NCBI GenBank assembly: GCA_016839765.1
Contig: JAEOTP010000085.1
Span: forward strand, 1 to 37,253
DNA length: 37,253 nucleotides
Origin: Promethearchaeota archaeon
GTDB lineage: Archaea; Asgardarchaeota; Lokiarchaeia; Sigyniarchaeales; SOKP01
Reading direction: 5' to 3'
Under the pieces are notes generated by a model. That model saw only the letters and a list, made by a program, of their open reading frames with translations. It searched no databases and was not told the DNA's origin. Positions 1,029-36,397 of the stretch are shown here, piece by piece. Position numbers and translations under genes: made by a program. The first letter of the stretch is position 1. Each line of letters begins with the position of its first letter.

Positions 1029-2096
1029 ATGAGCACATTAATTCCATCTTATGTTTATACTTATATAAAAATAGATTTTTTAAAAAAATTGATTATAAAA
1101 GAAGAAAATTTATCAAGATTAAGAGAATTTAATAATATTCAAGATCTTTTTGATTTTATTCTTCCTTATTATCCAGAAATTAATGTTTCAGGATATACTA
1201 TAATAGAAATTGAGCAAGCTCTTTTTCATATTTATATAAAACTAATTGGAAAAATTATTCATTTCTCTCCGGAGAATATGAAATTCTTTTTAAGAGCTTT
1301 ACTTTTAAAGTTTGAAATTTCCAATATTAAACAGATCATTCTTGGGTCTATTATCGGGATGTCTAAATTAGAAAAGTCTAAGAGAATTAACTTTTTAGTA
1401 GAGGAATATTTAGAACATTCAAATTTTATCAACGATTTATTAGAAATCTCTAGTTTAGAGGAAATTCAATTATATATGAAGAGAACAAGATATAATAAGG
1501 CAATTCGAGAAGGCATACTTTATTTTAAAAATACGAATGAGATTTTTGTTTTAGAGGCGTTTTTAGATAAGTTATATTATGAAAATCTGATTTTAACTAA
1601 AAAAATATATAATAAAAAAGAAAGTGCCATGATATCACTGTTTATCGATTATTCCACTGAAGTATATAATTTAAGAATGATTTCACGTGCAATTATTAAT
1701 AATTTTGATAAAAATTTAATTTCTCAACTTTTAATTAACGAATACGTATTTTTGAATCAGAATAAACTTAAAACTTTATTAAACACTAAAAATATTGATG
1801 ATTTTTCTTCAAATTTAGAAAATTTTTTAAGGTATTCAAAAGGGTTAAAGGAATTATATATACCAATTATTTTAAATAAAAAACATTTAAGATGGTCTTT
1901 TGAAGGGCTTTACCAAAATTATTATTTTAAAAAATTTCAATTAATAATTGATGATTTTGATTATGCAACAATATATAAGATTTTAGAATTGATAATTAAA
2001 AAAGAAAAAGAAATTAAATTTAATATAATGCCAAATGTAATTAGAATAATTCATAAAAAATATGAGGGGTTAAAGCTTAACGATGAAAATTTTTGA
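1029..2096 (+). CDS. atpC: A-type ATP synthase subunit C (AC39/d family)
   Basis: Subunit C is the funnel-shaped connector that sits on the c-ring and links it to the central stalk. The 355-residue length, all-helical composition and absence of membrane segments fit the vATP-synt_AC39 family. The opening YVYTYIKI corresponds to the family's N-terminal 'Y..aR.ra' region. The central segment with LEAFLDKLYYENL matches the recurrent 'LE..LD..Y...L' helix of this fold. The ATG has a GGTG Shine-Dalgarno six bases upstream (1019-1022). The gene overlaps the next one by 14 bases, indicating co-translation. Its place between K and the peripheral-stalk subunits, inside a complete ATP synthase operon, makes the call firm even though the sequence is divergent. 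Confidence 0.88.
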   Translation: MSTLIPSYVYTYIKIDFLKKLIIKEENLSRLREFNNIQDLFDFILPYYPEINVSGYTIIEIEQALFHIYIKLIGKIIHFSPENMKFFLRALLLKFEISNIKQIILGSIIGMSKLEKSKRINFLVEEYLEHSNFINDLLEISSLEEIQLYMKRTRYNKAIREGILYFKNTNEIFVLEAFLDKLYYENLILTKKIYNKKESAMISLFIDYSTEVYNLRMISRAIINNFDKNLISQLLINEYVFLNQNKLKTLLNTKNIDDFSSNLENFLRYSKGLKELYIPIILNKKHLRWSFEGLYQNYYFKKFQLIIDDFDYATIYKILELIIKKEKEIKFNIMPNVIRIIHKKYEGLKLNDENF

Positions 2097-2400
2097 ATGG
2101 GCAAAAGAGGTAGAAAATATATATAAAGAACTAATAGAAAAATCGAAAAATCAAAATTTAAAAGAAATTGAAGAATTAAAAGTTGAAAATGAAAAACTAT
2201 TAGATGAATTCTTACTAAAAAAACAAAATTTAGTTAATATTGCATTAAACTCTATTAATAAAGAAGTTAACAAGGAAATTTCACAATTTGAAGAGAATTT
2301 GAAAAGCATTCTTAAAAAATTTGAACAGGATTATAATCAAAATAAAAAAAAAATAATAAATGAAATCATTAAAAGGTTAGGTTTGGATTTTAATGCCTGA
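2083..2400 (+). CDS. atpH: A-type ATP synthase peripheral stalk subunit H (G-like)
   Basis: This 105-residue protein is almost entirely charged coiled coil (Lys, Glu, Asn, Leu and Ile heptads from about residue 5 to 98) with no membrane segment. That is the expected form of subunit H/G, which pairs with subunit E to make the peripheral stalks holding the catalytic head against subunit I. Its ATG lies inside the end of the subunit C gene (14-base overlap) and its end overlaps subunit F by 8 bases. In many archaea this gene is first in the operon, before subunit I, so its position between C and F is unusual. The identity rests on size, coiled-coil character and context, because short coiled coils carry little diagnostic sequence. 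Confidence 0.72.
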   Translation: MKIFEWAKEVENIYKELIEKSKNQNLKEIEELKVENEKLLDEFLLKKQNLVNIALNSINKEVNKEISQFEENLKSILKKFEQDYNQNKKKIINEIIKRLGLDFNA

Positions 2401-2713
2401 ACAAAAGATTTATGCGATTGGAGAAGAAGAAATTATACTGATGATGGGTTTATTGGGAATAGAGGGAACAGTACTTAATAAACCAGAAGAATTTTCAAAC
2501 GAATTTAATAGTTTAAAAAAAGATACTTCTATAGGAATGATAATTATAGCAATGGATTTATTAAATAATGATATTCAAAATCTAATAGAACATAAATTAA
2601 GTAAAGAAAAGCCGTTTATTTTTTATCTTCCCGATATTTTCAAATCAAAACTTGAAGATAGGACTGTTTTTCTTGAAGAAATTTTTAAATCTATAGGAAA
2701 AATTATAAAATAG
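2393..2713 (+). CDS. atpF: A-type ATP synthase subunit F
   Basis: Subunit F is a small Rossmann-like central-stalk protein that binds subunit D. The 106 residues show the family layout. An N-terminal strand IYAIGEEEIILMMGLLGIEG corresponds to the 'vigd.d.v.gfrLaGi' region. The middle strand SIGMIIIAMDLL is followed by a helix and then by PFIFYLPDIF, matching the conserved proline-flanked strand near the C-terminus. The ATG overlaps the end of the H gene by 8 bases. Length is typical (about 100 residues). The gene is followed after 14 bases by the probable ATT start of subunit E. Confidence 0.88.
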   Translation: MPEQKIYAIGEEEIILMMGLLGIEGTVLNKPEEFSNEFNSLKKDTSIGMIIIAMDLLNNDIQNLIEHKLSKEKPFIFYLPDIFKSKLEDRTVFLEEIFKSIGKIIK

Positions 2714-2727
2714 GCTGTTGGGGTAAG

Positions 2728-3450
2728 ATTTCAGAAGAGAAAAATATTAAAGAACAATTTGGTCAATTAGGACTCTATTTAGTTGATAGGGCAGAAGAAA
2801 AGATAAAAGAATTTAACCAACAAATGCTTTATCAAAAAACAGAAATTAAAAAAAATTATTTAAAAAGAGTAAATGAAAATTTTATTCGAATAAAAAACCA
2901 ATTTATAGAAGCTTATAATAACTTTTTAAATGAATCATTAACTTCTAACCTTATTCAAGCTAAAGAATCTATTTTAAATCTAAAAAATAACTTTTTAGAT
3001 GATTTAAAACATGAATTAATAAACCAATTAGAAGAAATTATTGCAAGAAATTACTCCAATTATTTAAATTTTTTAATTGAGAAAATAAAAAGCTCATTAG
3101 AAATTATTGATAAACCTCCAAAAGTAATTATTCTATTAAATCAAAAAGATTTTAGTGCAATTAATAGAGATCTCTCTAAAATTGAAAATCTTTTCAAAAA
3201 TAAAATAGAAATTATTTCTTCTAAAGAAGATTTTATTGGTGGGTTTAAAGTAATCTTGGAAGATGCTAAAATAAGTTATAACTATTCTATTGATAATTTA
3301 TTATTGAAGAACGTTATTGTTATCGAAGAACACCTTTCACAAATTTTTTCTGAAACTGAAATGGAAAAATTACAAATCGATTTTGAAAGATATATTAAAA
3401 ATAAAAAACAAGAAATAAAGGAGTATTTAAAAGAGTATGATCAAATCTAA
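2728..3450 (+). CDS. atpE: A-type ATP synthase subunit E, possible ATT start
   Basis: Subunit E forms the peripheral stalk with subunit H. The N-terminal half is a long charged coiled coil and the C-terminal half is a mixed globular domain (including VIILLNQKDFSAI, GGFKVILEDAKISYNYSIDNLL), where GGf.v...d..i..d.t.d matches the E family. The first ATG is at 2824 (208 residues), but it has no ribosome site and lies inside the coiled coil. The frame is open back to a stop at 2686-2688, and the extra sequence (LVDRAEEKIKEF) looks like genuine E N-terminus. It contains no ATG, GTG or TTG. ATT at 2728 follows GGGGT at 2720-2724, with short spacing, and would give 240 residues. The exact start is uncertain; ATG 2824 is the fallback. 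The gene overlaps subunit A by 14 bases. Confidence 0.82.
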   Translation: MSEEKNIKEQFGQLGLYLVDRAEEKIKEFNQQMLYQKTEIKKNYLKRVNENFIRIKNQFIEAYNNFLNESLTSNLIQAKESILNLKNNFLDDLKHELINQLEEIIARNYSNYLNFLIEKIKSSLEIIDKPPKVIILLNQKDFSAINRDLSKIENLFKNKIEIISSKEDFIGGFKVILEDAKISYNYSIDNLLLKNVIVIEEHLSQIFSETEMEKLQIDFERYIKNKKQEIKEYLKEYDQI

Positions 3451-5275
3451 TGAATCCTCTCAAATTGGATATATTACAGCAATTAATGGATCTTTAATCA
3501 TAGTGAAGGGTATAGAAAAGCAGGTCAAATTACATGATTTAATTATAGTTTCAGAACAAAATATTTTAGGAGAAATAATTCAGATTTATAATAGCTATGC
3601 AGTGGCACAATGCTATGAAAGTACTAATAATTTAAAATTAAATCAAGAGATTATTAGTCTTCAAGAACCTTTATCAATGGAATTAGCACCAGGACTCCTT
3701 ACAAGTGTATTTGATGGGATTCAGAGACCTTTAAATGTACTTGATAAAATATTAAATAGTGCTTTTTTACAACGTGGTATTGAAATACCATCTCTTTCTA
3801 GAACTAATAAATGGCATTTTATCCCCCATAAGAACGAAGGAGAAAAAGTTGAACCAGGAGATATAATTGGTTCAATTCAAGAAACACCTCTAATAGAACA
3901 TAGAATATTAGTTCCAATTAATTATTCAGGAGTTTTATCGTTTATTGTTGAAGAGGGGGATTATACTATAGAGAAGGAAATCTATCGATTGAAAAAAAAT
4001 GGGAAAGAATATTCTTTAACCATGTTACAAAAGTGGCCGATAACGAATAGTAGACCTTACAAAGAGAGAATTACATCGGAAGAACCTTTAATTACGGGAA
4101 TAAGGATAATTGATTTGCTCTTTCCTATAGTAAAAGGAGGAACAGTTGCAGTACCAGGAGGTTTTGGTACAGGTAAAACAGTTATTCAGCAATCTCTAGC
4201 AAAATGGTGTGATGCTGATATAATTATTTTTGTAGGATGTGGAGAACGTGGGAATGAAATTGCTGATGTTTTAAAAGAATTTTCAAAAATAATAGATCCT
4301 AAAAGTGGACGTCCCCTAATAGAAAGAATAGTAATTATAGCTAACACTTCAAATATGCCTGTTTCAGCTCGTGAGGCAAGTATCTTCTCAGGAGTTACTA
4401 TAGCCGAATATTATAGAGATATGGGTTACGATGTAGCAGTTCTAGCTGATAGTACTTCTAGATGGGCAGAATCTTTAAGAGAAATTTCAGGATTATTGGA
4501 AGAAATGCCTGCAGAGGAAGGTTATCCTGCATACTTACCTTCTAAGCTTTCAAGTTTTTATGAAAGGGCTGGAAAAGTAGAAATATTAGGAAATAATGAT
4601 TCAAAAAGAAAAAATTTAGGCTCATTAACAATAATTGGCTCAGTTTCTCCTCCTGCAGGTGATTTTAGTGAACCAGTAACAGCTACTACTAAAAGATTTG
4701 TTCAAGCATTCTGGGCATTAGATGCTAGTCTTGCTTATTCAAAACATTATCCTGCAATAAATTGGTTGAGTTCTTATTCAAATTATTTAGAATACGTAGC
4801 TCAATGGTGGTATGAAAGGGATATTCATTGGCCTGAAATTGATATTGACTGGTATCAATCTAGAGCTGAAATTAATGTAATTTTATCAAGGGAAAATGAA
4901 TTAAAAAATATTGTCCAATTAATTGGAGAAGAAAATTTACCTGATGACCAACAATTTGTAATTTTTATTGGAAAATTAATACGAGAAAGTTTTCTTATTC
5001 AAAATGCTTTTGATAATATTGATAACTTTACCAATGTTAATAAATTGTTAGGACACACAAAACTAATTCTACTTTTATATCATCAAGGACAAGAACTTCT
5101 AACTCAAGGATATTTGCTCGAAGATATTAAATCTCTTGAAGTTTTGAATGATATTCGAAGAATTAGCCATACAATCCCTAATGATCAATTTAATAAAATA
5201 GAAAAAATAAAAAATAAATTGCTTAAAGATATTCAATCCATAAAATTAATGTATAGTGGACGTAAAAAATTATGA
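3437..5275 (+). CDS. atpA: A-type ATP synthase catalytic subunit A
   Basis: This is the catalytic nucleotide-binding subunit. The 612 residues contain an N-terminal beta barrel, the A/V-type 'non-homologous' insertion (about 110-190, including [16 protein letters not shown]) and the Walker A loop G241-G-F-G-T-G-K247-T248. The catalytic glutamate lies in GERGNE (Glu270). Downstream come [10 protein letters not shown] (Walker B region and adenine pocket), the [12 protein letters not shown] segment and a helical C-terminal domain. The archaeal Walker loop is commonly GPFGSGKT; here it is GGFGTGKT, a mild variant. The gene overlaps subunit E by 14 bases and subunit B by the four bases ATGA. All key catalytic residues visible to me are present, so the enzyme should be active. 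Confidence 0.98.
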
Positions 5276-6660
5276 GTGTCATTTATAGAAATATACAAGA
5301 AATAGTCGGACCATTAATTTTTTTGACAAATGAACATGATGTACAATATGGGGAGATAGTTAAAATTGAATCTGAAGACGGTAAAACTAGATCGGGTCAA
5401 GTGGTAAAAATGAACGAGAAGGTAATAGTTATTGAGGTTTTTGAAACAACCAAAGGTTTATCCCGTGAAAATTCAAAAATTTTCTTTACTGAAGATACTT
5501 TTAAAGTGAGAATATCAGAAAATGATATGTTCGGAAGAACATTTAATTCTTTGGGAAGACCGTTTAACATTTATACAAAAAAGATTTTATCCACAGATGT
5601 AATTAGTGATCTCGAATTAGATATTTATGGAGCACCAATTAATCCCTATTCAAGAGAATATCCTTCAGAAGTTATCCAGACGGGGATCTCTGTGATAGAT
5701 GGACTTTTTACTTTGATTAGAGGCCAAAAATTACCCATATTTAGTGCGCAAGGACTACCACACAATAAATTGGCAGCACAAATAGTAACCCAAGCTAAAG
5801 TATTAACTGAAGAATCGTTTTTAATTATTTTTTGTGGCATTGGTATAATAGAAGATGAGGCAATAAATTTTTTAAAAGCTTTTAGAGAGAGTGGAAATAT
5901 TCAAAATATTATTTCATTTATAAATTTTGCATCTGATCCTATAATGGAAAGATTAATTATCCCTCGAGTAGCTTTAACAACAGCAGAATATTTTGCATTT
6001 GAAAAAGAAATGCATGTACTCGTAGTATTGATCGATATGACAAACTATGCTGAAGCATTAAGAGAATTAAGTTCTGCAAAAGAAGAGATTCCTAGTAGGA
6101 AGGGATATCCAGGATATCTATATTCTGATTTAGCCTCGATTTATGAAAGAACTGGTAAATTGAAAGGAAAAAAAGGATCAATTACTCAAATTCCTATTTT
6201 AACTATGCCTAATGATGATATTTCACATCCCATTCCCGATACAACTGGATATATAACCGAAGGACAGTTAGTTTTAAACCGCGATTTAAATAATAAAGGT
6301 ATTTATCCTCCATTTGAAGTATTAGCATCAATTTCAAGGCTCATGAAAGATGCGATTGGAAAAAACACAACTAGAGAAGACCATGCTGATCTTAGTTCTC
6401 AAATATTAGCATCTTATTCTGATGCTCTTGAGGCTAGAGACATACTCTCTGTTGTCGGAGAGGATGGTTTGAACTATGATCAAAAGGCATTATTGGATTT
6501 TGGTGACGATTTTGAAAAGAAGTTTTTAAATCAAGGAACCTCAGAAAACCGGAATTTTAATGACACATTTTCTATCGCATGGGAAGTTCTTTCAAATTTG
6601 TCAAGAAATCAATTATTTAGAATTCATCAGGAATTTATTGAAAATTATTATATTCCCTAG
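5272..6660 (+). CDS. atpB: A-type ATP synthase regulatory subunit B
   Basis: Subunit B alternates with A in the A3B3 head and carries the non-catalytic nucleotide sites. The 462-residue length is normal. Features in order are an N-terminal barrel beginning [13 protein letters not shown], then FNSLGRPF, the segment [22 protein letters not shown], and the degenerate P-loop S158-A-Q-G-L-P-H-N-K166 in place of a Walker A motif, which is diagnostic of B rather than A. These are followed by [35 protein letters not shown] and the conserved QLVLNRDL. The start codon overlaps the stop of subunit A (ATGA), and the gene ends directly against the GTG start of subunit D. Confidence 0.98.
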
Positions 6661-7335
6661 GTGTTGATATTAAGTTTCAGAGAAATAAAACCTACAAAAA
6701 CAAATTTAATCAACTTAAAGAAAAAGTTAATTTTTGCTAGAAAAGGAGAAAAATTTTTAGAATTTAAACGTGAACAATTAATTGGTTTAATTAAAACTAA
6801 TTGGATAGTTTACCAAAAGAAATTGGATGAATTTTTGAAATTATTTGGAAAAGCTTTAATTTATCTGAACGAAGCTTATAAAGAAATGGGTAAGAGAGAT
6901 TTGGTTTTGATTAGTAATTTAAGTAAAATCCAATATCGACCAACAGTTAATATCAAATATACTAAAAATATTGGGATCACTTTCCATAACATAGATTTCG
7001 ATTTAAATCGAACAGGAAGACTTCCTGCTTATTCGTTTGAAAATACCAGCCACTTCATTGATGAATTGATGCCTTTATTAGAAGAATTTTTTAAAAATAT
7101 GATTAATTTTGCGGAATTTGAAGATTTATTTTTCTTACTGGCTTTAAATTTTAAAAAAGTAAGCAGAAGGATCAATGGACTAAAAAATATGATTATTCCT
7201 ACTCTAATATTAGATATTAGAAAAATTAAGGGAATCTTAGAAGAATTGGATAGAGAAAATTTTGTTAGGCTAAAAAAAACAAAAGATTTAATAAAAAAAA
7301 AGGAAAATAAGCAATCTGGAGGAGTTATTCAGTGA
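6661..7335 (+). CDS. atpD: A-type ATP synthase central-stalk subunit D
   Basis: Subunit D is the rotating axle inside the A3B3 head. The 224 residues form two long helices at the ends of the protein. The N-terminal motif IKPTKTNLINLKKKL followed by FLEFKREQL matches the family pattern 'PT...L..Lk..L..A..g..lLk.KRe.L'. The C-terminal motif VSRRINGLKNMIIPTL matches the conserved 'RRvNaLE.v.iP.l' helix. The start is GTG, immediately after the TAG of subunit B with no intervening base; TTG at 6664 is an alternative. The end overlaps the GTG start of subunit I (GTGA). Length is slightly above the usual 200-210 residues because of a Lys-rich tail. Confidence 0.95.
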   Translation: MLILSFREIKPTKTNLINLKKKLIFARKGEKFLEFKREQLIGLIKTNWIVYQKKLDEFLKLFGKALIYLNEAYKEMGKRDLVLISNLSKIQYRPTVNIKYTKNIGITFHNIDFDLNRTGRLPAYSFENTSHFIDELMPLLEEFFKNMINFAEFEDLFFLLALNFKKVSRRINGLKNMIIPTLILDIRKIKGILEELDRENFVRLKKTKDLIKKKENKQSGGVIQ

Positions 7336-9653
7336 CAAAGAAAACTCAGATGAGTTTACTCAAAATAGGAATTAATAATTATTATAAGGACCGACTTTTA
7401 AATATCCTTTCATCAATAAATAATGTTCATATAAAAACAAAAGAAAAGGTTCTTTCAGGAAAAAAAATAGAAGAAAAAGATCCCTTCTTTGGTGTAATTA
7501 AAAATCTAAGGCAAGGTTTAGATTCATTATTTAATAAACTCAATATCAATGAAAATGAATTCCAAGAATTAAAAAAGATTGAATCTGATGAAAAAATTGA
7601 ATTTGTGGTAAAAGATATACCCGAATTGGTTAATAAGTCATTAGAAGAAATTAATTTTTATACAAATCGAATTAATGAATTGGATAGGTATGTCGCAAAT
7701 GCAAAAATTGAATTAGAAAATATGCAAATAATAAAATCTAGTTATACATTTTTGGAGCAATTTAATTTAACAAGAGAAAGTTTATCAGAATTCAAAAACT
7801 TAAATTTTAGAGTATTTATAACTTTTAAAAAGAACATTGAAAATTTCAAAACTCTTTTTGCATTTGATGCGTTTCCAAATGTCCACCAAACTGATGAGTT
7901 ATTCCCAAACGTATACAAATTAGAAGACCGTAATACTTTTTATGTAATTTATCCGAAAGATCTAGAAGAAAACTTAAGGGAAAGAATAAATCTTATTCAC
8001 GCAGAAGAGGTTCCAATTTTAAAAAAGTATTTAACTCCAGATACGATCAATTTTACACGAATAAATAATGAAATTGATATGATTAATACCACTTTATCGA
8101 AATATGAGAAAGAAAGAGCCCAACTAAGAGATTCAAATCTACACAAATTTGCTGCAATAAATGAAGTTGTGCAAAATATCGAAGAGTATCACTGGGCAGA
8201 ACAACAATTTGAGAAAATTTCTCCAGATCGCCTAATCTTAAAATTTTTTTTACCTTCATGGAAAAAGAAAGAAGTAGAACAACTCTTATTGAAAACTTTT
8301 AAAAATAAGATTATTATAAATATTCTTGATATTCCTAGATTTCATGAAATAAAAGAAATAGATCGAATAGAACCTAAATCTCTAGAGGAAGTAAAAAAAA
8401 CAGAGTATAGTTTAGCAGTAAATGAAGATGTAAAGCAAGAAGATTTAAGATCTAATACTCCTACAATTATGAAAAATTCTTGGTTTATCAGACCTTTCGA
8501 ATTGATTACAAAAATGTATGGTATACCATCCTATTCTGAAATTGATCCCACACCATTTATAGCGTTTACATTTCCCTTTATTTTTGGATTAATGTTTGGA
8601 GATATTGGTCATGGATTTTGTTTAATTATTGCAGGTATTTTTGGAGGTATTATTTTTAGAAAGAAAAATGTAGGTAAATTCAGCTGGATTATTTTGTATT
8701 GCGGAATAGGAGCAGCTTTAGGTGGATTATTTTATGGTGAATTTTTTGGATATGAAGAGTTTTTTGGCATTCCATTGCAGCCAATTATTATTCCTATTCC
8801 ATTGTTAGGTCCTGTAAATTTGTATAATCCCATTGAAAATATACAAAGCGTTTTTAAATTTGCTCTTTTCATCGGTGTGGTCCACATTAATCTGGGTTGG
8901 TTCCTTGAGCTTATTAATTACATAAGGCAATCAAAGAAATATTTAGCATTTTCGAATTCCTTTATGAAAATATGTTTGTTAACTGGAGGTACATACTTAA
9001 TATTTGAATATGGCATAAATCTTACAACTTGGTTATCGCCAACAACTTTTTTCTCACCTTATGGTCCTATTCCTTTACCACCTCCTATTTTATTAGTAAT
9101 TGTCCCAGGCATTCTATTAATAATATTAAAACCATTAGGTAAATTATTCCGGGTCTCTTATTTAAAAAGAGAATCATATGGCGCCTTAATGGGAGAAGGT
9201 ACTCTTGATACGTTTGAAACTGCTTTATCAGTCTTAAGCAATGTAGCTTCATATATCCGGTTGCTAGCTCTAGCTCTAGCTCATATAGCGTTAATGATAT
9301 CTATACAAGCACTATCAGGGTTAATTCAAGGTGAAGGAGTCTTATTTGAAATATTGACATTCTTAGGATTAATTTTAGGAAATGTTATTGTAATTTTATT
9401 GGAAGGGATATTAGTTTTTATCAACACAATTCGACTTCACTTCTATGAATTTTTCTTTAAATTTTACAAAGGTACAGGAACGGAATTTTTTCCTTTTTAT
9501 TTAGACAATAATTATTCAGCAATCACCTTTAGAGTTGATTTTGAAAAAGATTTGATTTCTGAGGAAATAGAAAAAGAATTCGAAACTAAAAAGGCAAAAG
9601 AAGAAGTAGATAAAGCAATAAGTTATATTAAAAGCAAATATTTTAAAAGTTAA
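7332..9653 (+). CDS. atpI: A-type ATP synthase membrane subunit I (a-subunit)
   Basis: Subunit I forms the ion half-channels against the c-ring and anchors the peripheral stalks. The 773 residues have a cytoplasmic N-terminal half (about 1-400, coiled coil plus alpha/beta parts) and a C-terminal half with about eight membrane helices. FPFIFGLMFGDIGHGF is the conserved first-helix motif. The essential arginine is Arg643 in YIRLLALALAH, followed by the HLRLHWVEF-like motif, here IRLHFYEFFFKFY. The GTG start overlaps the stop of subunit D and has a GGAGG ribosome site at 7318-7322. In most archaeal operons this gene is near the front; here it is last among the synthase genes. Confidence 0.96.
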   Translation: MTKKTQMSLLKIGINNYYKDRLLNILSSINNVHIKTKEKVLSGKKIEEKDPFFGVIKNLRQGLDSLFNKLNINENEFQELKKIESDEKIEFVVKDIPELVNKSLEEINFYTNRINELDRYVANAKIELENMQIIKSSYTFLEQFNLTRESLSEFKNLNFRVFITFKKNIENFKTLFAFDAFPNVHQTDELFPNVYKLEDRNTFYVIYPKDLEENLRERINLIHAEEVPILKKYLTPDTINFTRINNEIDMINTTLSKYEKERAQLRDSNLHKFAAINEVVQNIEEYHWAEQQFEKISPDRLILKFFLPSWKKKEVEQLLLKTFKNKIIINILDIPRFHEIKEIDRIEPKSLEEVKKTEYSLAVNEDVKQEDLRSNTPTIMKNSWFIRPFELITKMYGIPSYSEIDPTPFIAFTFPFIFGLMFGDIGHGFCLIIAGIFGGIIFRKKNVGKFSWIILYCGIGAALGGLFYGEFFGYEEFFGIPLQPIIIPIPLLGPVNLYNPIENIQSVFKFALFIGVVHINLGWFLELINYIRQSKKYLAFSNSFMKICLLTGGTYLIFEYGINLTTWLSPTTFFSPYGPIPLPPPILLVIVPGILLIILKPLGKLFRVSYLKRESYGALMGEGTLDTFETALSVLSNVASYIRLLALALAHIALMISIQALSGLIQGEGVLFEILTFLGLILGNVIVILLEGILVFINTIRLHFYEFFFKFYKGTGTEFFPFYLDNNYSAITFRVDFEKDLISEEIEKEFETKKAKEEVDKAISYIKSKYFKS

Positions 9654-32411: not shown

Positions 32412-33809
32412 TTGTCAGAAGAAAAATTGTTTGAAATCTTTGTCAATAGTTTAGAATTCGATATCAATGATTATTTTGTTGAGGAACTTAGTGATCTTCA
32501 AAAAGAAATAATTGATGATGCAACTTTCATTTTGAAAGAAAATGTAGTAGGAGATATTAAATCACTCGGAGGTTCTATTAAACTAAATCAAGATAAATTT
32601 GATGAATTAATGAAAAAAGCTGAAACTGAACTGGAAAATGTAAAATATAAAGAAATAAAAAAGGTATTAAAAGATTATTTGAAAAAATTAAAGGAATTGA
32701 TCCTTAAAACATGTTTAGCAATAATACCTGTTAAGGAATTACCTTGGGTTGATTTAGTCTTTCGGACTATTCCTCGAATCATGTATGAAAATAATCAGCT
32801 GACCTTTTTAGATAATGCAATTGCTTATTATGGGGAAATTAAGTGTTTTATTGGAAGGACAACTGTATATGGGAAAATAAAAGATCAAAAACCATTATTC
32901 GCCCCTTTTACTGGTAATCTGGATTTACATGGGTATAACCTAGATGATTCTGAAAAGGGCCCGAAATCTAAAATTTTCCCATATGTAAATGCCATCATTA
33001 ATGCAATGGATTCTACTTTAACGACTAGTCAGTTGGCTAAATACCATGAAAATTTTCAAAGACACGGAGATCCAATATGCGATTTCTTAATGGGGGATGA
33101 AGAATTATTAGAATCAATGGAAAAAATTAATTCAGGATTAGATTCTACTAGAATTAAGTCAGATATAACTATTTGCAGTTTAGCATTACCCATTCCCTCA
33201 GATAGTACCACCTTAATTCTTGTTGCTGAAGAGGGTGAAGATCAAAACAAATATTCGAGGTGTTTTGAAGCTTTTTTAAAATTATCTGCTGCATGTTGCC
33301 AAGTACCTTCTATAAAACAAGAAACAGTATCTCAACCGCCAGGAGCTATTAGTACTCCAGGAGGTCAACAATTAAAAGCATGGACTGCAGAGGAATTAGC
33401 GCAAGAAGCCCAAAAAAGAATGGCTGCCCAACCTAACATTCCTGCATGGACAGAGGATGAACTAGCAAAATTTTCAAGTGAAAGAGGGTCTGGAATTCCA
33501 GAAGGAATGGAAGTATGGACTGAAGAAGATTTACAAGAATTAGCAGAGAAACGGCGTGGGGGAGGATTAAATATTCCAGAATGGGCACCTGATGAAAAAA
33601 TGACTGAATGCTCTAATTGTGGCTATAGTCTTAGACCAGGATGGACAAAATGTCCTATATGTGAAACTTCCGTAGGAGAAAAACCTCCAGAAAAGCCTGA
33701 AGAAGAACTTCCTAAAGAAGAACCCCCTGAAGAAGAACCCTCTGAAGAAAATGTAGAGCCATCAGATGAAGAATTAAACAAAGAGGAAGAAAATAACGGC
33801 GAAAATTGA
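32412..33809 (+). CDS. Unknown protein with Trp-motif repeats, zinc ribbon and acidic tail
   Basis: The 465 residues have three parts. Residues 1 to about 300 are a soluble alpha/beta domain that I do not recognise, with RTTVYGKI, FTGNLDLHGYNLDD and ICSLALPIPSDSTTLILVAEEG. Then four copies of a short repeat begin with Trp: AWTAEELAQEA (Trp324), AWTEDELAKF (Trp346), VWTEEDLQELA (Trp369) and the degenerate EWAPDEKM (Trp391), spaced 22-23 residues. Next is a zinc ribbon (Cys400, Cys403, Cys414, Cys417) and a Pro/Glu tail. The start is TTG, with ATT directly before it. The Trp repeats look like linear peptide-binding motifs or docking sites. It is the first gene of the GTPase neighbourhood. Its function is unknown. 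Confidence 0.75.
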   Translation: MSEEKLFEIFVNSLEFDINDYFVEELSDLQKEIIDDATFILKENVVGDIKSLGGSIKLNQDKFDELMKKAETELENVKYKEIKKVLKDYLKKLKELILKTCLAIIPVKELPWVDLVFRTIPRIMYENNQLTFLDNAIAYYGEIKCFIGRTTVYGKIKDQKPLFAPFTGNLDLHGYNLDDSEKGPKSKIFPYVNAIINAMDSTLTTSQLAKYHENFQRHGDPICDFLMGDEELLESMEKINSGLDSTRIKSDITICSLALPIPSDSTTLILVAEEGEDQNKYSRCFEAFLKLSAACCQVPSIKQETVSQPPGAISTPGGQQLKAWTAEELAQEAQKRMAAQPNIPAWTEDELAKFSSERGSGIPEGMEVWTEEDLQELAEKRRGGGLNIPEWAPDEKMTECSNCGYSLRPGWTKCPICETSVGEKPPEKPEEELPKEEPPEEEPSEENVEPSDEELNKEEENNGEN

Positions 33810-33980
33810 TTAATATAGAATATATTAAAAAGTTAAATTATCAATTTCATGAATAAATATGGTTGAATTTGTCAATAAAACCAAAAAATATAAAAGGAGC
33901 TTAATTGACTTAGATTCCAAACTTTTTTTAATAATTTTTTATTTACAACATTAAGGAAATTAATCTTTTAGGAAAAATTA

Positions 33981-35021
33981 TTGTTATCCACTATTTTTTT
34001 ATTAAAGGGTAAAAACTTTCATGACCTTAACCAGTTAGATATCTATAGTTATCCAGAAGATATCGTTAGAAATAATAACAAAGATTTCATTGAAAAGATT
34101 ATTTTTGGACATGATCAAGGTATGATAAGAGAAGGGTTTCGCAGTAGCCAAACTGTCCTTCGAAATCATGATATTAATAAAAAAAATCAGGATAATTTTA
34201 TAATAGGTATTCCCATTCCTCAAAAAATTGATGAGAATAATATATACACAATTAGTATTAACTCAAAAATGATTATTGGTTTAATCTTTGATGAAGAGGA
34301 TAACCCTTATGATTTTAAAGAGATCTTTGAAGATTTATCTTATGAGTTAATAAATAATGAAAAATGCTGCTCTTTTGAAGATGAGTTAGAAATCGAAAAC
34401 TTGTTAATAACATTATTTATAGATTTACGCAGATATGGTGATGAGATTTTAGCGAAATATCCAGAAGTGTCCTTTCAACCAGTAGGGATGTTTATAAAAG
34501 TATTTTTATTTGGAATTGATGAATCGGGAAAAACTTCTTTAGTGAGAAGGATTAAAACAGGTCAATTTGATGATAATTTCTTTGCTCCTACAAGAAAATT
34601 TGATATTAAATATGTCCAAAAAGAAAAAGATTTCCTTGCCTTTTGGGATATTCCCGGTCAAATTTCATTTCGTGAAAAGTGGTTAAAGGGTATCCAAGAT
34701 TCAAATATATTAGTCTATATGATTGATGTTGCTAATCAACTACGTTTTGAGGAATCTAAACAAGAATTTTGGAATGTTATAAACGAAGAAGTGACACCAG
34801 AAATCCCTCTCTTAATTTTAGGAAACAAAATAGATTTAATTAATCATTCTAAGGACAATAATCAAAAACAGTTAACAAGAATAGAAAATGAAATTATTGA
34901 CTATTTTGAATTTCATAAATTGAGAGATAGAGAATGGAATTTCTTATTTACCTCAGTTAAAACCAATTATAACATTGAAACTGTATTAAATACAATTTTT
35001 TCCTTAACATCTCATATATAA
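33981..35021 (+). CDS. Arf-like small GTPase with extra N-terminal (longin-like?) domain
   Basis: Residues about 170-346 form a Ras-superfamily GTPase: G1 G178-I-D-E-S-G-K184-T185, a switch Thr at 204, G3 D223-I-P-G-Q227, G4 NKID (282-285) and G5 near TSVK. The WDIPGQ motif and general layout are Arf/SRbeta-like. Residues 1 to about 165 are a separate domain with mixed strands and a helix after IYTISINSKMIIGLIFDEEDNP, which resembles a longin or roadblock fold; that part is inference. There is no myristoylation or prenylation signal. The TTG start has TAGGA upstream; no better start exists. The gene is followed 89 bases later by a V4R protein and then by a Rab-like GTPase. Confidence 0.83.
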   Translation: MLSTIFLLKGKNFHDLNQLDIYSYPEDIVRNNNKDFIEKIIFGHDQGMIREGFRSSQTVLRNHDINKKNQDNFIIGIPIPQKIDENNIYTISINSKMIIGLIFDEEDNPYDFKEIFEDLSYELINNEKCCSFEDELEIENLLITLFIDLRRYGDEILAKYPEVSFQPVGMFIKVFLFGIDESGKTSLVRRIKTGQFDDNFFAPTRKFDIKYVQKEKDFLAFWDIPGQISFREKWLKGIQDSNILVYMIDVANQLRFEESKQEFWNVINEEVTPEIPLLILGNKIDLINHSKDNNQKQLTRIENEIIDYFEFHKLRDREWNFLFTSVKTNYNIETVLNTIFSLTSHI

Positions 35022-35110
35022 TCATTAAATTTATAAATCTGGACAGTTAAATTTCTATTATATTAAACATTTTCTTGAAATCAAAATATTAAATTTCTTA
35101 AAGATAAACT

Positions 35111-35707
35111 ATGTATAAACGATTAAAAAAAGAATTACAAATTAATATAGAAGATAAAGATGGACACTTATTCTTAGGTGAAAAAAAGAAAGATATACGC
35201 CTTTTAATGTTACGTCCTAATGAAATTCTCGAATTTGCAGAATTCGCGGGCAGTAATGCGGACGATATTCTTATATGGGTGGGGAAGACTCTTGGAAAAT
35301 CTCTACTGGAAAAATTTTTCTATGAAAAAGACTGGAGCACTGAAAATATGGCAACCAAAAAAGAAGTGGTACTAGGTATCTTGGAATCTTTAATTCTTAT
35401 GGGGTATGGAGCTCTAACTGGCACATTCAAAAAAGACCACATTATAGTTAATGTATATGAGTCCTTAGCAAGTCAAGAAAAAGATAATATTATGGCTAAA
35501 AACCTTTGTCTTCTGTATTTAGGAATATTTAACGGAGTATTTGAAATCTTAGGAATAGATGTTGATGGAAAAGAAATTGAATGTATTCTCACAGGCGGAG
35601 ATAAATGTTCATATAAATTTGATTTTATTGGTGAAGAGATTGATGATAAACTGGTTGATGAAGAATTATCAGATCAAGCAGTCTCTGATTTTTTAGCCTC
35701 TCTCTAA
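35111..35707 (+). CDS. V4R/Bet3-like (TRAPP-fold) domain protein
   Basis: The 198 residues match the V4R domain, which shares its fold with the TRAPP subunit Bet3. The N-terminal helix-rich half is RLLMLRPNEILEFAEFAG, then DDILIWVGKTLGKSLLEKFF. The middle strand is DHIIVNVYESLASQ, followed by a helix ending LGIFNGVFEILGI. The signature is E157-C158-x3-G-G-D-K-C166-x-Y-x-F, with the two cysteines of the V4R motif. An acidic tail of about 25 residues follows. V4R domains bind hydrophobic ligands or serve as protein-interaction modules. The location between an Arf-like and a Rab-like GTPase suggests a GTPase partner. The gene has its own upstream gaps, so it may be transcribed separately. Confidence 0.8.
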   Translation: MYKRLKKELQINIEDKDGHLFLGEKKKDIRLLMLRPNEILEFAEFAGSNADDILIWVGKTLGKSLLEKFFYEKDWSTENMATKKEVVLGILESLILMGYGALTGTFKKDHIIVNVYESLASQEKDNIMAKNLCLLYLGIFNGVFEILGIDVDGKEIECILTGGDKCSYKFDFIGEEIDDKLVDEELSDQAVSDFLASL

Positions 35708-35857
35708 TTCATGTGTTCAAAAAAAGTTAAATTTTTTCCATTATCTTTAAAATTATCGTATGTTAAGAACTAGTTATAATCAAGCTAAGGTTAAGTGAAA
35801 AAATATAAAGCCTTATTAATATTAGAATTTAGGTAAGTCTAGATTTATTTAATAAGA

Positions 35858-36397
35858 ATGATTAACTACAAAAAGCATTTTTTTAAGACGATAATCGCTG
35901 GGGAGGGTGGTGTTGGAAAAACAACACTCTTACACCAATATATTAGAGGCGAATTTAGGCCAGAAGTTCAAAGTACGATTGGTTCTAATTTTTTTGTAAA
36001 ATATGTTAAAATTCCTCAAGCTAATAATATTTTAACCCTGCAGATCTGGGATCTTGCTGGTCAAGCTCGTTTTAAATGGGTTAGACAAGCTTTCTATAAA
36101 GGAACTAGAGGAATTGTATATATGTTTGATTTAACGCATTATGAATCATTTGAGAATTTGAATTTTTGGAAGGAGGAAATAGAGAGTACTGTTGGAGTTC
36201 AACCTAGTATATTGGTTGGAAACAAACTTGATTTATTAGAAACTGAAATTAGAGGTGTACCTTTAGAAGAATCAAACACTCTTAAGGCCAATCTTGCTTC
36301 CTGCGCTTATATTGAAACAAGTGCTAAATTTGGTACTGGAGTAGATGATTTATTTAGTAAACTTGCTATAGAGATGTATAAATCACAGGATTTTTAA
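35858..36397 (+). CDS. Ras/Rab-family small GTPase
   Basis: The 179-residue protein is a complete small GTPase: G1 G15-E-G-G-V-G-K21-T22, the switch I Thr40 in STIGSNF, G3 W64-D-L-A-G-Q69, G4 N122-K-L-D125 and G5 E-T-S155-A-K157. The WDLAGQ motif, the catalytic-type Gln69 and the ETSAK box are closest to Rab/Ras rather than Arf. There is no C-terminal cysteine for prenylation (it ends MYKSQDF), so membrane attachment, if any, must be through a partner. Asgard archaea encode many such GTPases. It is separated from the V4R gene by 150 bases, and no GAP is visible nearby; a GEF role for the V4R protein is only a hypothesis. Confidence 0.95.
   Translation: MINYKKHFFKTIIAGEGGVGKTTLLHQYIRGEFRPEVQSTIGSNFFVKYVKIPQANNILTLQIWDLAGQARFKWVRQAFYKGTRGIVYMFDLTHYESFENLNFWKEEIESTVGVQPSILVGNKLDLLETEIRGVPLEESNTLKANLASCAYIETSAKFGTGVDDLFSKLAIEMYKSQDF

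Follow-up and report, generated by a model that had tools for sequence, protein, structure and literature searches.

Conserved pairing of genes for a longin-Arf fusion GTPase and a V4R-fold protein in a family of Lokiarchaeota

The stretch of DNA analysed here (the window, 37,253 nucleotides) is part of contig C72 in a Lokiarchaeota assembly of 3.3 Mb; the Lokiarchaeota are archaea related to eukaryotes. An earlier, sequence-only reading had described three genes in its last part, encoding an Arf-like GTPase with an extra longin-like domain, a Bet3/V4R-fold protein and a Rab-like GTPase, as a trafficking-like module that could form a minimal GTPase-regulator system. All three open reading frames were present, in the same direction on the forward strand, at positions 33981-35021, 35111-35707 and 35858-36397. 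Conservation of the longin-Arf and V4R proteins was assessed in orthologue alignments of 56 sequences; gene neighbourhoods were counted in Lokiarchaeota of the source genome's family, which provided 55 longin-Arf/V4R loci from nine genera. The named relatives of the V4R gene were all from Lokiarchaeota or Lokiarchaeia metagenome assemblies.

The first gene (33981-35021, forward strand) has a TTG start and encodes a fusion GTPase of 346 residues. Residues 172-339 (34494-34997, forward strand) were matched by the Pfam Arf family (PF00025, E = 4e-28) and by structures of Arf-like G domains. The G1 (GxxxxGK), G3 (WDxPGQ) and G4 (NKxD) motifs and the G5 serine were invariant or nearly so in the 56 orthologues; judged by its sequence, the G domain is intact, with all of the GTPase motifs kept. 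In the AlphaFold2 model, which was built from the 56-sequence alignment and had a mean pLDDT of 80, residues 1-157 (33981-34451, forward strand) formed a separate domain with the order b-b-a-b-b-b-a-a, comprising strands at residues 2-9, 20-24, 79-83, 86-93 and 97-103 and helices at 35-58, 109-126 and 135-157; no helix precedes the first strand, and two helices follow the last. Longin domains have been told apart from roadblock domains by the lack of a leading helix and the presence of a second C-terminal helix (PMC10933270), and because the predicted order of helices and strands agrees with this distinction the N-terminal domain was assigned as a longin domain by predicted topology. No longin family match to this domain was obtained in Pfam or PDB profile searches, no Pfam family matched it consistently, and the Foldseek list for the full model was filled by G-domain matches, among which the N-terminal domain was not separable. 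The Pfam match and the predicted topology bear out the sequence-only reading of this gene as an Arf-like GTPase with an added longin-like domain.

In the sequence and fold of its G domain the protein resembled members of the Arf family (Arl3, Arl8 and the Asgard ArfR1). It differed from them in the G3 motif, which is WDxGGQ in the Arf family, and at the N-terminus, where the amphipathic, myristoylatable helix of the Arf type is absent and a longin-topology domain is found in its place; residue 2 is leucine. Longin-fused Arf/Rag-like GTPases and V4R/TRAPPC3-fold proteins have already been published from Asgard archaea, and the longin/roadblock-fused Arf/Rag-like GTPases of MK-D1 likewise carry an Arf/Rag-like G domain joined to a longin-topology domain (PMC10933270). 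Unlike these MK-D1 proteins, the longin-Arf family described here has conserved V4R and zinc-ribbon neighbours.

The second gene (35111-35707, forward strand) encodes a V4R/TRAPP-fold protein of 198 residues. It was matched by the Pfam V4R family (PF02830) with an E value of 3e-6 and a score of 27.5 bits, which is under the cut-off of 31, and 55 of the 56 orthologues matched the same family at an E value of 0.1 or better. The Pfam TRAPP family (PF04051), in contrast, matched four of the 56 orthologues, the window's own protein not being among them. In a Foldseek search with the AlphaFold2 model the DmpR/PoxR sensor domains ranked first, ahead of H-NOX and of Bet3/TRAPPC3; TM-scores were around 0.5. 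A PDB profile search gave weak matches to TRAPPC3 (E = 0.08-0.8). The earlier description of this protein as a Bet3/V4R-fold neighbour of the Arf-like gene therefore stood with regard to fold and position, whereas its sequence favours V4R over TRAPP.

Four residues, C133, E155, C158 and C166, were kept in 53-55 of the 56 V4R orthologues and make up a putative metal or redox site. Their pattern, C-E-C-x7-C, is the set found in V4R domains of the DmpR type; the zinc ligands of DmpR are Cys151, Glu172, Cys177 and Cys185 (PMC7264223), and the redox-relevant cysteines of MsvR, a V4R redox regulator of methanogens, are residues 206, 232 and 240 (PMC3729527). The C-x7-C spacing is identical in the three proteins, and the distance from the first to the second cysteine is 25 residues in the window's protein compared with 26 in DmpR and MsvR, so that the three conserved cysteines are spaced 25/8 here and 26/8 in MsvR. 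This evidence points to a sensor-type V4R protein rather than a Bet3 orthologue.

The V4R fold and the three cysteines and one glutamate at matching positions are held in common with the sensor domains of DmpR, PoxR and MopR (PMC7264223), although the window's protein stands alone, without the ATPase or DNA-binding domain of those regulators. The NCBIfam model for MsvR matched it with an E value of 4e-6, far under the model's cut-off. MsvR is an example of an archaeal V4R domain that can respond to redox (PMC3729527); unlike MsvR, the protein described here has no helix-turn-helix domain and is paired with a GTPase. TRAPPC3/Bet3 proteins, including Thorarchaeota TRAPPC3 (PDB 7yh2 and 7yh3), have the overall fold in common with it, with weak profile matches, and differ in that the V4R family mostly lacks a Pfam TRAPP match and has no conserved association with a Rab gene. 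For Asgard TRAPPC3/V4R proteins, a structural study proposed that ligands are bound and did not favour a role in exchange (PMC10933270). Elsewhere in the order, in other families (loci L200, L201, L202 and G003:C6:89596-90590), the V4R orthologue and another V4R gene formed a tandem pair, after which, at L202, came a Rab-like gene.

The third gene (35858-36397, forward strand) encodes a Rab-like GTPase of 179 residues (PF00071, E = 7e-41), for which the best solved structure was a Thorarchaeota Rab. The C-terminus reads EMYKSQDF and has no prenylatable cysteine. The gene itself is real; its place in a module was not sustained, as, among the genomes of the family that were examined, it directly followed the V4R gene in the source genome alone. 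With the threshold applied, 37 further genomes had orthologues with 53-65% identity, which lay on other contigs or approximately 40-60 kb away, and in genome G021 a more distant Rab-like gene lay two genes past the V4R gene. There were about 71 Ras-family matches in the 3.3 Mb of the source genome, and small GTPases make up approximately 2% of Asgard genes (PMC10307638); because of this abundance such an adjacency is expected by chance, at an estimated one immediate Ras-family neighbour of the V4R gene among some 52 genomes, if about 3,000 genes per genome are assumed. The Rab-like gene was therefore rejected as part of the module, and its position beside the V4R gene is probably a coincidence. 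It is followed by a LigB-like dioxygenase-family gene (PF02900; 36478-37218, reverse strand) that was found neither near the locus nor beside the Rab-like orthologues in the relatives' contexts examined, and the stretch after the V4R gene looks rearranged in the source genome.

Across the family, the longin-Arf and V4R genes were adjacent and on the same strand at 53 of 55 loci and in eight of nine genera. The gap between them was 89-178 bp where they were adjacent, and the pair persisted with protein identity to the window's copy down to about 40%. The exceptions were genomes G021 and G034, in which the V4R gene was on another contig. Directly upstream of the longin-Arf gene, at 48 of 49 loci, was a gene that the sequence-only reading had not included in its trio (32412-33809, forward strand). 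It encodes a zinc-ribbon protein of 465 residues with an N-terminal part of about 310 residues, for which there was no family match, W-T-x-E-E-L repeats, the ribbon and an acidic tail; the repeats, about three of which precede the ribbon (33375-33605), could be repeated binding motifs. The proposed three-gene neighbourhood was not seen in the other genomes of the family examined. The conserved unit is instead the longin-Arf gene with the V4R gene, usually after the zinc-ribbon gene.

The usual gene downstream of V4R in the family, absent from that position in the window, belongs to the CO dehydrogenase family (PF03063); it was co-directional at 29 loci and opposite at two, and an MtrH-family gene lay further downstream in relatives. 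In most relatives a second Arf/Rag-like GTPase gene, encoding 402 residues with N- and C-terminal extensions, was located on the opposite strand a few kb downstream (for example, L067:10699-11907), where its neighbours were genes for a vWA/RING-type protein, an MtrH-family protein and a TPR protein with a weak match to SNAP.

Each of the two paired genes was preceded by an element of its own. Upstream of the longin-Arf gene, the element at 33887-33931 on the forward strand contains AATATAAAAGG and, at 33915-33931, TTCCAAACTTTTTTTAA, which follows a TATA-like stretch; upstream of the V4R gene, at 35025-35065 on the forward strand, the box TTAAATTT occurs twice, at a distance of 22 bp, and its second copy is extended to TTAAATTTCTATTATATTA. 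Both elements were highly conserved; the conservation held within the genus and extended in part to other genera. They look like promoters, and the one before the V4R gene is possibly an operator. Because the longin-Arf and V4R genes are each preceded by such a conserved element, separate transcription appears more likely than a single operon, and an operon-like module is accordingly doubtful. The genes at 1029-9653 form a co-directional run in which several members abut or overlap and which resembles a true operon; the longin-Arf/V4R pair is more widely spaced. The idea that the elements mark a regulon was also considered and was unsupported: the 18-mer of the V4R element (35048-35065) occurred nowhere else in the genome when up to one mismatch was allowed, and the longin-Arf 17-mer had five further near-matches, compared with two for a reversed control.

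The preferred explanation, which is tentative and has slightly less than an even chance of being correct, is that a V4R dimer that senses a ligand or redox state modulates the longin-Arf switch. The analysis shows the domains, the motifs, the gene neighbourhood and the separate conserved promoter-like elements; from these we infer the interaction itself, which partner controls the other and the nature of the ligand. The longin domain would dimerise or dock and so position the Arf-like switch, a metal-stabilised V4R dimer would sense a small ligand or the redox state, and this sensing would alter the GTPase in its state or its location. It is also quite conceivable, though on the doubtful side, that only synteny is shared, with the genes acting independently within a part of the chromosome that is stable in a single Lokiarchaeota family. 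Control pairs of apparently unrelated genes in the same region were kept at 34 of 34, 36 of 36 and 32 of 33 loci. The longin-Arf/V4R adjacency is thus no stronger than that of other regional pairs, which weakens the case for a functional link, and since those pairs are equally conserved family-level synteny may explain this one. The separate promoter-like elements agree with independent action, as does the relocation of V4R in G034, and apparently also in G021, where the zinc-ribbon and longin-Arf genes have stayed together. Outside the family the distributions of the genes differ: longin-Arf occurred without a V4R orthologue (for example, in G004), V4R occurred without longin-Arf in G009, G075 and G078, and in G003 all three genes were on different contigs. 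Given these differences, the arrangement was probably assembled in the ancestor of the source genome's family. Synteny alone fits less well with the fact that other borders do break (V4R-CODH was kept at 31 of 45 loci, RHH-HAD at 23 of 41 and CODH-p70 at 22 of 36) whereas the zinc-ribbon, longin-Arf and V4R genes stay together almost without a break, and with the absence of these three genes as a block from G038, G070 and G073, in which at least one flank was kept. Of the eight genomes with apparent co-absence, only these three showed a flank without the block; co-absence as proof of co-loss was mostly dropped, as contigs end near the locus in G065, G018 and G029, and G025 and G054 were left out. 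The correlation of V4R distances with longin distances (partial r = 0.15) was below that of some controls, and with the G domain there was likewise no clear signal.

Two further explanations were considered. A minimal TRAPP-like assembly along the lines of the sequence-only reading, in which V4R would flank the longin domain as Bet3 flanks the longin subunits of TRAPP and which as a whole would serve as an exchange factor for a Rab-like GTPase, is consistent with the encoding of the two folds side by side, with the inclusion of TRAPPC3 structures in the best matches of both the profile and the fold searches and with the resemblance of Asgard TRAPPC3 dimers to TRAPPC3/C6 (PMC10933270). It is nevertheless very unlikely: a Rab gene is not a conserved neighbour, a longin domain covalently joined to its own GTPase makes a Rab partner unneeded, the sequences match V4R far more often than TRAPP, and the sensor-type Cys/Glu set is kept here, whereas in mouse TRAPPC3 a hydrogen bond has replaced the zinc site (PMC10933270). 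Alternatively, V4R could sense a redox or C1-related signal that the GTPase relays to metabolic rather than membrane targets. The redox response of MsvR and the CO dehydrogenase-family and MtrH-family genes downstream agree with such one-carbon regulation, which is nonetheless quite improbable, given that the V4R-CODH border was broken at 14 of 45 loci and is absent from the window, and that the argument comes from neighbour genes alone. A bolder form of the preferred sensor explanation, in which a metal- or redox-sensing V4R dimer directly binds and controls the longin-Arf GTPase, is unlikely; it would be a two-component arrangement with the longin domain as the platform for a Bet3-fold sensor, of a kind that could predate TRAPP-type exchange complexes.

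For MK-D1 it was reported that, in general, the genes for small GTPases do not share operons with those for roadblock, longin or TRAPPC3 proteins (PMC10933270). No published report of the longin-Arf/V4R pairing was found in the open-access literature that was searched. The component domains are of known kinds, and their conserved pairing is a variant. To our knowledge, the Lokiarchaea have dozens of small GTPases without known regulators. Published work on MK-D1 found gene layout to be of no use in matching them. A neighbourhood kept in eight genera or more singles out one particular GTPase and its candidate regulator. It also raises the question of whether Bet3-fold proteins, before they joined eukaryotic exchange factors, may have sensed ligands or redox states on longin-GTPases.
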